From Winslowiella iniecta (GTDB lineage Bacteria > Pseudomonadota > Gammaproteobacteria > Enterobacterales > Enterobacteriaceae): 64,000 bases of DNA. The stretch is taken from contig NZ_JRXE01000014.1 in assembly GCF_001267535.1 (NCBI RefSeq), positions 45,602 to 109,601 on the forward strand. The letters are read 5' to 3'. The notes beneath the pieces are model-generated. The model had not been told where the DNA came from and searched no databases. It saw nothing but the letters and a program-made list of their open reading frames with translations. How positions within the stretch are numbered: the stretch's first letter is position 1; every line of letters begins with the position of its first letter. Position numbers and translations under genes: made by a program. Shown here in pieces: positions 8,195-13,632 of this stretch.

Positions 8195-11065
8195 ATGACT
8201 CAGACTCTCAGCCAGCTTGAACACACCGGCGCGTTTATCGAACGCCATATTGGCCCCTCGCAGCAGCAGCAGGAAGCGATGCTGGCGACCGTCGGCGCCC
8301 GCTCGCTTTCCGATTTAATCGGCTCGATTGTGCCAGCCGATATCCAGTTACCCAGCCCTCCGGCGATTGGTGACGCGCTGACAGAACATCAGGCGCTGGC
8401 CGAGCTGAAAGCGATTGCCAGTCAGAATCAGCTGTATAAATCTTATATCGGCATGGGTTATGCCCCGGTATTAACGCCGCCGGTTATCCTGCGCAATATG
8501 CTGGAAAATCCGGGCTGGTACACCGCTTACACCCCTTATCAGCCAGAAGTTTCCCAGGGCCGACTGGAAGCGCTGCTTAACTTCCAGCAGGTGACGCTGG
8601 ATCTGACCGGGCTGGATATCGCCTCGGCATCGTTGCTGGATGAAGCGACTGCGGCGGCAGAAGCGATGGCGATGGCGAAACGCGTCAGTAAGCTGAAAAA
8701 TGCCAATAAATTCTTTGTGGCTGAGGATATTCATCCACAAACGCTGGATGTGGTGCGTACCCGCGCGGAAACCTTTGGTTTTGAAGTGCTGGTGGATCGG
8801 GCTGATAAAGCACTCGATCATCAGGATCTGTTTGGTGTGTTGTTGCAGCAGGTTGGCACCACCGGCGAGGCGCATGACTATCGCCAGCTGATGGCGGAAC
8901 TGAAAGATCGTAAAGTGATCGTCAGCGTTGCCGCAGAATTTATGTCGCTGGTGCTGCTGGAAGCGCCCGGCAAGCAGGGCGCGGATATTGTCTTTGGTTC
9001 GGCGCAACGTTTCGGCGTACCGATGGGCTACGGCGGGCCACATGCGGCATTCTTTGCTGCGCGTGATGAGCATAAGCGCTCAATGCCGGGGCGCATTATC
9101 GGCGTATCGCGTGATACGGCAGGTAACACCGCGCTGCGTATGGCGATGCAGACGCGCGAACAGCATATCCGTCGCGAGAAAGCGAACTCCAACATCTGTA
9201 CTTCGCAGGTACTGCTGGCCAATATCGCCAGCCTGTATGCGGTGTACCACGGACCGGTCGGACTACAGCGCATTGCCGGGCGTATTCACCGTCTGACCGA
9301 TATTCTGGCTGCGGGTCTGAAACAGGGCGGCCTGACACTGCGCCATAATAGCTGGTTCGATACCCTCACCGTCGACGTGGCTGACAAAGCTGCGGTGCTG
9401 GATCGCGCACTGAGCTTTGGCGCAAACCTGCGTACCGATATCCATCATGCCGTCGGTATTACGCTGGATGAAACCACCACTCGCGAAGATGTGGCGGCCT
9501 TGCTGGCGATTCTGCTGGGTGAAGATCATGGTGTGGATATCGAGGCGCTCGACGCACAGCTCGCCGCCAACAGCCAGTCAGTTCCGGCGGATCTGCTGCG
9601 TAAAGAGGCGATTCTGACGCATCCGGTGTTTAATCGTCATCACAGTGAAACTGAGATGATGCGCTATATGCACAGCCTGGAACGGAAAGATCTGGCGCTG
9701 AATCAGGCAATGATCCCGCTGGGATCCTGCACCATGAAACTGAACGCGGCCGCCGAAATGATTCCGATTACCTGGCCAGAGTTTGCCGGCCTGCATCCGT
9801 TCTGTCCGGCGGATCAGGCTGGCGGCTATCTGCAGATGATCGGCCAGCTGTCACAATGGCTGGTGCAACTGACCGGTTATGACGCGCTCTGTATGCAGCC
9901 AAACTCTGGCGCGCAGGGCGAATACGCCGGTCTGCTGGCGATTCGTCGCTATCACGAGAGCCGTAATGAAGCCGGTCGACATATCTGCCTGATCCCCAGC
10001 TCGGCTCACGGCACAAATCCGGCGTCGGCGCAGATGGCTGGCATGTCAGTGGTGGTGGTCGCCTGTGATAAGCAGGGTAATATCGACCTGCACGATCTGC
10101 GCCAGAAGGCGGAGCAGGCGGGTGAAGCGCTCTCCTGTATTATGGTGACCTATCCGTCGACCCATGGCGTTTACGAAGAGACTATCCGTGAAGTGTGCCA
10201 GATTGTGCATCAGTTTGGCGGCCAGGTGTATCTCGACGGTGCCAATATGAATGCGCAGGTGGGCATCACTACCCCAGGCTATATCGGCGCGGATGTGTCG
10301 CACCTGAATCTGCATAAAACCTTCTGTATCCCGCATGGCGGCGGCGGTCCGGGTATGGGACCGATTGGCGTCAAGGCGCATCTGGCTCCATTTGTACCCG
10401 GTCACAGCGTGGTGCAGATTGATGACATGCTGACCCAACAGGGCGCGGTCTCTGCCGCACCGTTTGGCAGCGCATCGATTCTGCCAATCAGCTGGATGTA
10501 TATCCGCATGATGGGTGCGGAGGGACTGAAGCAGGCCAGCTCGGTGGCAATCCTGAATGCTAACTATATCGCCAGCCGTTTACAGTCAGCGTATCCGATT
10601 CTCTATGCTGGCCGCGATGGTCGTGTGGCGCACGAATGTATTCTGGATATTCGTCCGCTGAAAGAGCAAACCGGCATCAGCGAACTGGATATTGCCAAAC
10701 GTCTGATCGACTACGGATTCCATGCGCCAACCATGTCATTCCCGGTGGCGGGTACGCTGATGGTCGAGCCGACGGAATCGGAAAGTAAAATCGAGCTGGA
10801 TCGCTTTATCGACGCGATGCTGTCAATCCGTATCGAGATCGACCGTGTGGCTGAGGGGGAATGGCCTGCGGAGGATAACCCGCTGGTTAACGCACCGCAT
10901 ACCCAAATGGAAATCGTTGGCGAGTGGTCGCACCCTTATAGCCGTGAACTGGCGGTATTCCCGGCGGGCAGCGACAACAAATACTGGCCGACAGTGAAGC
11001 GTCTGGATGATGTATTTGGTGACCGTAACCTGTTCTGCTCTTGTGTACCGATGAGCGAATATTGA
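8195..11065 (+). CDS. gcvP: Glycine dehydrogenase (decarboxylating), P protein
   Basis: PLP enzyme that decarboxylates glycine and loads the aminomethyl group on the H-protein lipoyl arm. 956 residues (E. coli 957) in the single-chain bacterial form, with two homologous halves. The PLP lysine lies in [16 protein letters not shown] (near residue 710). The N-terminal half starts [16 protein letters not shown] as in the family. The ATG at 8195 is 104 bases from gcvH. Third gene of the operon; a strong palindromic terminator follows. Confidence 0.97.
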
Positions 11066-11102
11066 GTAAAAGCTTTAATGGCGTGATTAAGCCTGGATAA
11101 TA

Positions 11103-11130
11103 TAAAGCCTCATCGTACGATGAGGCTTTA
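11103..11130. terminator. Bidirectional terminator after gcvP
   Basis: A perfect 28-base palindrome (taaagcctcatcgt and its complement) flanked by A/T. It lies 37 bases after the gcvP stop and 11 bases after the stop of the minus-strand small membrane gene, so it can serve both converging transcripts. Confidence 0.8.
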
Positions 11131-11141
11131 AACAGAAAGCG

Positions 11142-11360
11142 TTAATCTCTGCCATTAAACCAGTCATGAAACCGGAACAGGCCGGAATAAAACGCATAAA
11201 TGCCTATAATTGAAAATAACATGGTAGCCAGGTCATAAGAATTTTTTGTAACAGCAAACCGGCATGGATTGTCATTAAGAACGACAGGAAATACAGTCGC
11301 CACCCATAGAATATGTATGACTGTCCTTCGCAAACGACTACCGGGACCCAATTTAATCAT
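11142..11360 (-). CDS. Small two-helix membrane protein, possible immunity protein
   Basis: I do not recognise the family. The ATG at 11360 has AGGTGG 6 bases upstream and gives 72 residues; the longer frame to 11441 would overlap the upstream peptide gene in another frame. Two hydrophobic segments (about residues 13-28 and 43-62) are separated by a short polar loop. A basic N-terminus (RLRR) and a C-terminal FRFHDWFNGRD complete it. The size and topology are like immunity proteins of small bacteriocins. It follows the 44-residue peptide gene by 13 bases on the same strand in an AT-rich patch, so the two look like one unit. Function is inference only. Confidence 0.6.
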   Translation of the reverse strand: MIKLGPGSRLRRTVIHILWVATVFPVVLNDNPCRFAVTKNSYDLATMLFSIIGIYAFYSGLFRFHDWFNGRD

Positions 11361-11373
11361 TTCGAACCACCTG

Positions 11374-11508
11374 TTACCAATGACATTCCCCGCCAATATT
11401 TGAGCTGCCGGAGTTTGACTTTCCTTTATGATTACCACCACAGGGACTGTTATTACAACTGCTTAAAGCGGCGGAAACTGCACTATCCTTAACGTTCAGC
11501 GTTTTCAT
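11374..11508 (-). CDS. 44-residue Ser/Gly/Cys peptide, bacteriocin- or RiPP-like candidate
   Basis: Short gene not matched to any family I know. It begins MKTLNVKDSAVSAAL and continues with a core rich in Ser, Asn and Gly holding three cysteines (SSCNNSPCGG at 16-25 and a final GECHW). The ATG at 11508 is preceded by AAGGAA with 6-base spacing, a strong site. The first 14 residues have the layout of a double-glycine-type leader (L..N...AVSAA) but with Ala-Ala in place of Gly-Gly. The rest would be a small polar core. No transporter, peptidase or modification gene lies nearby. It is followed after 13 bases by the two-helix protein. Real translation is likely; the bacteriocin role is inference. 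Confidence 0.55.
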   Translation of the reverse strand: MKTLNVKDSAVSAALSSCNNSPCGGNHKGKSNSGSSNIGGECHW

Positions 11509-11959
11509 AAAATTTCCTTTTTATCTATACCACCTGTTCTGGAGGTGGCAATGAAATTATTAAATCAAACTGAATAAAAAATAAAGACAGGAAATAATCA
11601 TTCCTCTTTTATATATCTTGGGTTATGGTGCTATAAATTAAGGTGGAAATTAACGCTATTGAAAAAGATAAGTGATATCCACACGCATTCAATAAATAAA
11701 TCCCTTTTGTTCAGTCAATATTTAAGCTCATAAGTTGTTTTTGCGAAAAAACACCGACTTCACGTCAGTTGTAAAATTGCAATAAAGTTTTTTATTTGTG
11801 ATGCAGATCTCATTTTTCGGATTGCCTGCCAAACCTGTTCCGCTGCTGTTACACGGCTTCACCGTTTAATTTTAGCTTACAGGTGTACTCTGAAATTATT
11901 CTCAGTTAGGCTGGTTCGGTAACGTTATCTCTGTTTCTGACGCGGGAGAGCCCGGATAT
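11509..11959. other. AT-rich intergenic region between the peptide gene and trhA
   Basis: About 450 bases, clearly more AT-rich than the core genes around it. Near 11530-11548 a 6-bp stem (ccacct / aggtgg) lies in the leader of the minus-strand peptide gene. It presumably holds divergent promoters for the peptide unit and trhA, but I cannot place them reliably. No larger open frame with a plausible start was seen. Confidence 0.5.
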
Positions 11960-12613
11960 ATGACGAATAACACGCTTTTAGCCAAGGGATATTCACTGGC
12001 AGAAGAGGTAGCCAACAGCATCAGTCATGGTGTCGGCTGTCTGCTGGGGATTATTGGATTAGTGTTACTGCTTGACCAGGCCATTGATGCACGCGCCAGT
12101 GCGCTGGCGATTACCAGTTACAGCGTGTATGGCGGCAGTATGATTCTGCTGTTTCTGGCGTCAACGCTTTACCACGCGATTCCCCATCAGCGGGCGAAAT
12201 ACTGGCTGAAAAAACTCGATCATTGCGCCATCTATCTGTTGATCGCCGGAACCTATACGCCGTTTCTGCTGGTGGGTTTGAAATCGCCGCTGGCACACGG
12301 ACTGATGGGGGTGATCTGGAGCCTGGCCTTAATTGGCGTGGTGTTTAAACTGTTGTTTGCTCATCGTTTTGAGGCAATGTCGCTGATCACTTATATGCTG
12401 ATGGGCTGGTTGTCGCTGGTAGTGATTTATCAACTGGCAATGACCTTATCAGCGGGAGGCGTGTGGTTGCTGGCGGCCGGCGGGATTATCTATTCGCTGG
12501 GGGTGATTTTCTACGCCATTGAGCGAATTCCCTATAACCATGCCATCTGGCATGGCTTTGTGCTCGGTGGCAGTCTGTGCCACTTTTTGGCGATCTATTT
12601 TTACGTGATTTGA
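11960..12613 (+). CDS. trhA: PAQR family membrane protein TrhA (hemolysin III-like, YqfA)
   Basis: Integral inner-membrane protein of the hemolysin III / PAQR family with about seven hydrophobic helices in 217 residues (E. coli 219). Family marks are visible: [10 protein letters not shown] near residue 15, [13 protein letters not shown] near 62, [17 protein letters not shown] near 80, and [19 protein letters not shown] at the end. In E. coli the protein has been linked to membrane energetics and fatty-acid balance, but the reaction is unclear. It stands alone with its own hairpin terminator, and is separated from gcvP by the peptide island. Confidence 0.94.
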
Positions 12614-12617
12614 TCGT

Positions 12618-12642
12618 CGGGCGAGGCAGCCAGCCTCGCCCG
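12618..12642. terminator. Terminator between trhA and ygfZ
   Basis: A 10-bp perfect GC stem (cgggcgaggc / gcctcgcccg) with a 5-base loop, 4 bases after the trhA stop and 9 bases before the ygfZ stop on the other strand. It can act for both convergent genes. Confidence 0.8.
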
Positions 12643-12651
12643 AGAGGGTTC

Positions 12652-13632
12652 TTAATCGATGGTATAAGGCAGTGGCTGAATCGCCAGCTTACCGCCTTCA
12701 TCACCCTGAACGCGCAGCACGGTATCGGCTTCAAGGTCGTTATTCATGACTACCTGCACCCACACTTCGCCGTTATCCAGCTGGGTAGCGGCCAGAATAG
12801 TGCCGGTACGACGCCAGTTTTCACCCAGTTGCATTTCCAGTGAATCGCCCGCTTCCGGTACCCGGCTGGCATTGCCGGCCAGCCAGTAAAGCGCACGTTT
12901 ATTGGCACCGCGGAACTTGGCGCGCGCCACCATCTCCTGGCCGGTATAGCAGCCTTTCTTAAAGCTGATAGCATCCAGCGACTGCAGGTTGGTTGCCTGC
13001 GGAATAAACTGCGCGCTGTTCTTTTCGTCGAGAATCGGTAAACCCGCTTCTATGTCCAGCGCCAGCCATTGCGCACTGTCATTAAACTGCGCTTCACCGG
13101 CCAGTTTTTGCTGAATTTCCTGCGCTTTTTCCGTACTGGTGATCAGCAAGAAACGCTCGGCAGGGTGGGCAAACCACAGCAGCGTGCTGTCGCCCTGCTG
13201 TACGACCTGATTTTCAGCATCCGGCAGCTGTTCAAACAGGCCAGCCAGTGCCGCCCGCGCCTGAAAACCCGCCACGCCAGACAAGACCGACTCATCATCG
13301 GCGGCAATGGTGATTTTGGCGAACACCGCATACTTTTTCAGCTCGGTGATTTGATTTTCACGCACGCTGCGTCGCTCAATATAGGCAAAGCCTTCGCCAC
13401 GATGAAACAGGCGCAGATTGCTCCACATTTTTCCTTTTGCATCGCAGTGCGCGCAAAGAAGATGTTGAGTCGCGGCCAGTGCGGCGACGTCAAGTGTCAC
13501 CTGGCCCTGTAAATAACTGACGCGATCCTGACCTTGCACGGTCGTCAGCGCCCAATCTTCCAGCGAGATCAACGTCAGCGGCAAACGCGCTGAGGCAACC
13601 GGCTGACGCGGCGGTAAAGTAAAGGTTGGCAT
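12652..13632 (-). CDS. ygfZ: tRNA-modifying / Fe-S maintenance protein YgfZ
   Basis: Folate-binding protein of the GcvT-like fold that supports certain Fe-S enzymes such as MiaB. The ATG at 13632 yields 326 residues, the same as E. coli, starting [19 protein letters not shown]. The frame continues upstream to 13731 without similarity. The diagnostic motif [17 protein letters not shown] with the reactive Cys is present near residue 228. It is divergent from sdhE with 229 bases between. Confidence 0.96.

Follow-up and report, generated by a model that had tools for sequence, protein, structure and literature searches.

The question raised by this locus is whether two small adjacent genes, lying between gcvP and a trhA-like gene, form a working bacteriocin with its immunity partner, as the original prediction held, or are what remains of such a pair. 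The window, which is the whole stretch of 64,000 nucleotides of Winslowiella iniecta that was analysed, carries both genes on the minus strand: a 44-codon ORF (11374-11508), whose product has three cysteines and ends in GECHW, and, after a gap of 13 bases, a 72-codon ORF (11142-11360) with an open frame, which would encode a two-helix membrane protein of the immunity type. RBS-like motifs can be read directly ahead of the 44-aa peptide (AAGGAA, 11514-11519, minus strand) and inside the gap ahead of the 72-codon ORF (AGGTGG, 11367-11372, minus strand). The flanks, both on the plus strand, are the glycine cleavage P-protein gene gcvP (8195-11065) and a HlyIII-family gene (11960-12613), which we take to be trhA; in E. 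coli these two genes are presumably separated by others. Determined in 400-base windows, the GC content is 0.42-0.44 over the pair, reaches a minimum of 0.33 just upstream and rises to 0.52-0.55 in the flanks, and the GC profile, together with a comparison with a related genome (G034, see below), delimits an AT-rich region from the upstream side of the pair up to trhA (11509-11959, no strand). The gene layout, sequence motifs, AT-rich patch and flanking families given in the original prediction were thus all confirmed.

Between gcvP and the immunity-type gene there is a perfect 26-bp palindrome (11104-11129, no strand), read directly, which may act as a terminator for both strands and is absent from the sites listed by the terminator scan; a longer imperfect inverted repeat around it (11074-11159) gives rise to a self-match of the window. 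Upstream of the pair, the same type of signal, a terminator-like stem followed by a T run, is seen at 11769-11753 on the minus strand (1 found, 0.8 expected), and a short inverted repeat, CCACCT...AGGTGG, was noticed by eye at 11530-11548 (minus strand), upstream of the RBS-like site of the peptide. The scan for sigma-70-type promoters gave no site on the strand of the pair, and a single one, compared with 2.9 expected, on the opposite strand. A curated RNA element in 10900-12100 was considered and rejected, since Rfam has no match there at the gathering score.

Elsewhere in the genus, the 44-aa peptide has its relatives in microcin precursors about 105 amino acids long, which share a common plan: the leader ends in GG/GA or similar and is followed by a GGAPxSCAN block, then by a Gly/Ala-rich hydrophobic stretch and finally by a Cys-containing tail, for example GSCNNSPYN...NYGAQCTW. 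Matches to the peptide are present in 4 of the 37 genomes of the genus, its own included. As the alignments used (A1 and A2) include rows from the window, its own score there is circular, and both proteins were rescored with profiles built without these rows. Residues 9-44 of the peptide then score 25.5 bits against the microcin profile (best of 5000 shuffles, 13.1), which identifies them as a class IIa microcin C-terminal tail, and residues 10-44 are 49% identical to the tail of a microcin in G028 (E = 1.5e-4 within that genome). Residues 1-8, MKTLNVKD, correspond to the start of a leader, the best fit among 22 intact precursors being MRTLDVKE of G006. What lies between these two parts in the relatives, a block of about 60 residues that includes the cleavage site and the putative killing domain, is represented by residues in all six other rows of A2 (one of which, L010 from G029, begins after an in-frame stop) and by about 60 gap columns in the window peptide. 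The highest mean hydropathy over 19 residues is accordingly 0.19 in the window peptide, against 1.4-1.8 in the six relatives.

Compared with the features of a class II microcin, the peptide retains the tail, with its three cysteines and GxCxW end, and lacks both the Gly/Ala-rich hydrophobic killing domain and a leader of about 15-19 residues ending in GG or GA, where SAA takes the place of SGA/GG. The position of the join is uncertain within residues 9-16, as SAVSAAL may close either the hydrophobic domain or a leader of Ala-Ala type, and in both readings the GG/GA site is gone. These comparisons make it most likely that the 44-aa gene is what remains of an antibacterial peptide gene whose central killing part has been lost. 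As an intact version of this microcin gene was not found among the relatives searched, whose tails are about half identical to it, we can only infer the deletion. No NCBIfam or Pfam model matches the peptide at E values up to 1, and the same was found for three full-length relatives.

These results divide the original prediction of a leader and core bacteriocin with an immunity partner. A bacteriocin-type gene and an immunity-type partner are indeed there, but the peptide does not consist of a complete leader and core with an Ala-Ala processing site, and an active antimicrobial is unlikely, since the block with the cleavage site and the hydrophobic killing domain is absent. The RiPP-like character that had been suggested does not hold either, as nothing points to modification, and a RiPP with an adjacent modification enzyme was rejected because the immediate neighbours are gcvP and the HlyIII-family gene.

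The 72-aa protein scores 66.2 bits against the immunity-type profile built without its own row (best of 5000 shuffles, 11.3), and is thus a member of a two-helix protein family whose genes sit at, or just past, the ends of class IIa microcin genes; in G028, G029, G025, G036, G010 and G017 the two-helix ORF overlaps the end of the longer microcin ORF or starts just past it. The two-helix partner of the original prediction is supported by this homology to ORFs behind full microcins and by an AlphaFold2 model from the single sequence, in which helices are predicted at residues 6-28 and 35-68 (mean pLDDT 71); the protein has two hydrophobic stretches. An alignment of 11 sequences, including that of the window, has F, G, F and W invariant besides the start M. 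Homology and layout suggest that it is the small inner-membrane immunity protein that lies next to such microcins, and the gene, with its frame open, probably still protects the cell against peptides of this kind. NCBIfam and Pfam gave matches below cut-off only. With the profiles built without the window rows, none of 1250 ORF segments of the window scores above the best shuffles, except those of the two ORFs themselves. The closest relative, with 46% identity, is an unannotated orphan on plasmid pPAT9B04 of Pantoea sp. At-9b (L031, 6001-6216), which has no microcin match upstream. A single match in genome contigs, recorded as Microvirga, was taken as chance because neither profile matches there. 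The possibility of a plasmid-borne parent was rejected, since the peptide, a full-length relative and a tail query have no match in the plasmid collection; the immunity-type protein has two, of which that in Serratia (E = 0.08) was set aside.

To place the pair among its relatives, we counted immunity-type loci and recorded what precedes them. Homologues of the 72-aa protein occur in 10 of the 37 genomes of the genus, its own included, and 13 loci were counted, 12 in the genus and one on pPAT9B04; six rows outside the genus (G045, two in G205, G280, G410 and G320) and the Serratia match were left out. Six loci follow a full microcin (that of G033 matches profile positions 2-98), two follow a damaged one (in G029 a stop interrupts the leader, and in the window only the leader start and the tail are left), and five (G014, G011, G005, a second copy in G025 and pPAT9B04) have no microcin match within 1200 bases upstream, so that seven of the 13 lack an intact microcin. 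The second G025 copy is a short match of 34 profile positions. Independent occurrence of the two genes, which the original prediction had set against itself, is therefore half borne out, the partner standing without a microcin match within that distance at 5/13 loci. The immunity-type ORFs already known in G028 and G029 fell below the hydropathy threshold of the ORF screen and were not picked up by it.

The microcin profile itself matches 13 of 392 genomes from the family and 15 of 147 relatives, giving 34 distinct places after removal of four duplicates. Six of these were judged by eye to be damaged: the window genome (G000), G029, G034 (two stops), G402 (one stop), G264 and G035 (a frame break each). 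A stop in G208 was not counted, as its position precedes the start codon, and the frame of G205 is open. By inspection, an open immunity-type ORF is kept at five of the six damaged places, and at G035 its frame is broken too. Microcin loss with retention of the immunity-type gene thus seems to be recurrent, in a small sample judged by eye. The microcin that carries two in-frame stops in G034 (locus L044), the nearest species by trhA, is not the one seen in the window, and an immunity-type ORF 45 bases past it is open. None of the other 33 places shows a shortened gene with its frame kept, as in the window, the sole other tail-only match, in G264, being a frame-broken gene.

The reading that we consider quite likely is that of a class IIa microcin locus disarmed by an in-frame internal deletion, whose immunity gene persists. 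Of its rivals, the one that survives best is that the whole pair is neutral debris, both genes being in decay and the immunity frame open only because the loss is recent. It draws on the deletion in the microcin, on the shortage of sigma-70-type sites described above, on G035, where both parts look broken, and on the weak immunity-type matches outside the genus in G045 and G280, which contain several stops each. Within the genus, however, none of the 12 immunity-type matches contains a stop, including the six that have no intact precursor within 1200 bases (the four without a microcin match, G029 and the window), and the window copy carries the columns that are invariant across the 11-row alignment. 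We therefore regard decay of both genes as unlikely.

It is less likely still that the 44-aa product is a functional short bacteriocin, with a 14-residue leader ending in SAA, a 30-residue Cys-rich core, export by an unlinked C39-ABC transporter and immunity from the adjacent gene. The frame is intact, the RBS is strong and an immunity-type gene follows, and by eye MKTLNVKD-SAVSAA can be aligned with MRTLDVKEMAVVSGA, the leader in G006. An exporter is also available, as the genome has two C39 matches, one of which, on contig C17 (L020, 9298-12736), is a C39-ABC exporter with a membrane fusion protein, unlinked to the pair. The order there is an 80-aa peptide, a 446-aa membrane fusion protein and a 701-aa C39-ABC exporter, which make up a complete-looking type I secretion unit (9018-12736). 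The 80-aa peptide has a double-glycine leader (MRELDTKEMEDVAGG...) and a Gly/Ser/Asn-rich core, with no family match above cut-off. The other match, on contig C5 (L021, 9609-10941), is a 195-aa C39 peptidase without an ABC part, beside a 107-aa ORF; a 151-aa protein at this locus matches the lactobin/cerein 7B model weakly (E = 0.0016, below cut-off).

The original prediction had remarked that no export gene is adjacent and that an outside exporter would be needed. The first part stands, but it is no objection to a microcin, since such distances are usual in the relatives. A C39 match is present in 10 of 12 genomes checked, the exceptions being G005 and G017, which has a full microcin. Microcins of this type lie about 0.5 Mb from the nearest C39 match in G028, 0.3 Mb in G025 and 1.7 Mb in G033, and on a different contig in other genomes; another G028 microcin is found about 1.5 kb from a C39 match. 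What speaks against a functional short bacteriocin is rather the peptide itself. The supposed leader end also aligns with the end of the hydrophobic domain (SAVSAALSSCNN compared with GGITAGLGSCNN), and no hydrophobic stretch is left. In the part of PMC5311971 that deals with leader processing, the double change G17A/G18A, which puts Ala-Ala in place of the two glycines of the cleavage site, abolished cleavage and inhibition in MccPDI, while a single glycine to alanine change did not prevent cleavage. The absence of a second short in-frame form from the survey points the same way.

A tail-only peptide kept for a purpose of its own, either, once secreted or released, by blocking the outer-membrane receptor of related microcins or by regulating other microcin genes, appears very unlikely to us. 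The putative receptor-binding tail is retained, with its cysteines and its characteristic end, and microcin C-terminal parts are described as the uptake part in passages of PMC13174018, but there is no cleavage site, and the form occurs in one genome only, with no second example. Receptor blocking can hold alongside the explanation of the immunity gene that we prefer. That deletion of the killing domain created a new protective unit, in which the immunity protein would act inside the cell and the receptor-blocking tail outside, is the least credible of the proposals.

The disarmed-locus reading is in agreement with the genomic site. The trhA gene is present in all 37 genomes of the genus, and gcvP lies within 1.5 kb of it in 10 of the 30 trhA loci examined, that of the window included, the other 20 having no gcvP there. 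Six of the ten readable sites hold a dehydrogenase-like ORF, which we take to be a short-chain dehydrogenase (SDR), one holds another ORF, two are short (261 and 292 bases), and that of the window holds the microcin pair (window 11066-11959, compared with L059-L062, L071, L074, L075, L078 and L080). The genome nearest by trhA, G034 (96% identical), has the dehydrogenase-like ORF and matches the window only over about 120 bases adjoining trhA. As the content of the site varies among species, the pair looks like an acquisition of the window lineage.

We propose that the gcvP-trhA site took up a class IIa microcin-immunity cassette, whose microcin gene, full-length at that time, then lost about 60 codons internally with the frame kept. 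In the 44-aa product the first residues of an export leader would run straight into the C-terminal tail, which is the putative receptor or uptake part. With neither a GG/GA site for cleavage nor a Gly/Ala-rich hydrophobic domain, this product should be neither processed nor lethal. Ribosomes that translate the short frame would end up within 13 bases of where the immunity gene starts, making coupled translation possible; as this frame ends just before the RBS of the immunity gene, the immunity protein could still be made, and it would sit in the inner membrane, guarding the cell against related microcins of its neighbours. Some of the evidence runs counter to this history. The best matches of leader and tail, in G006 and G028, are different microcins, and the nearest relative of the immunity gene is the pPAT9B04 orphan; recombination, instead of one deletion, could thus have produced the locus. 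The kept frame and the intact RBS would also be expected if the short peptide were under selection.

With this pair there is a clear candidate, outside the plasmids of E. coli, for the disarming of a microcin by internal deletion while its immunity gene was kept, and the five of six damaged places with an open immunity-type frame suggest that such cases recur. It also carries a warning, as small Cys-rich ORFs beside two-helix ORFs may be remnants of microcins and not new bacteriocins.

Among known systems, the plan of the relatives of the pair is shared, as far as their description goes, with the Group 2 class IIa microcins MccP04, MccE14 and MccP12. In the passages of PMC13174018 on these Erwinia/Pantoea microcins, the N-terminal part is MccH47-like and taken to kill, the C-terminal part is MccPDI-like, with a Cys near the end, and taken to serve uptake, and the immunity ORF is adjacent or overlapping. 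Read in this way, the window gene would retain the uptake part but no longer the killing part, and it differs from Group 2 in having neither a killing part nor a cleavage site. The same passages place Group 2 candidates mostly near T1SS genes, whereas the exporter of the window genome is on another contig. When Group 2 microcins were expressed in E. coli W3110, the inhibition was weak (PMC13174018). With MccPDI of E. coli the pair has in common the tail type, according to PMC13174018, and the arrangement of microcin and immunity gene together, as described in the relevant part of PMC5311971; in MccPDI, however, the GG leader works and there are a second cleavage site, four cysteines and an exporter of its own, while the window remnant has neither cleavage site and three cysteines.

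The closest parallel is with the orphan immunity genes of E. coli plasmids. The portion of PMC12546727 that reports them gives 243 plasmids with orphan immunity genes, 53 of them with microcin ones, some of these genes adjoining bacteriocin genes in heavily truncated form, which recur in several distinct plasmids. It argues that many such orphans reflect maintenance or gain of immunity and not only recent loss of the toxin, which supports the view that immunity genes are kept, and by which the orphans counted here need not be relics; the window pair bears on the same question, whether orphans arise because the toxin is lost or because immunity is gained. In both systems immunity is kept without a working toxin, in some cases beside a truncated bacteriocin gene, but the E. 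coli orphans are plasmid-borne, whereas the window gene lies beside gcvP and trhA, and its remnant is a short open frame of leader start and tail. Truncated colicin and microcin genes are also reported in PMC6723558. In titles, abstract openings and passages of the literature on class II microcins of Erwinia/Pantoea, MccPDI, orphan immunity and truncated microcins, we found no report of a tail-only microcin remnant. A truncated bacteriocin gene beside a kept immunity gene is thus an already known arrangement, of which the window pair is a further case.
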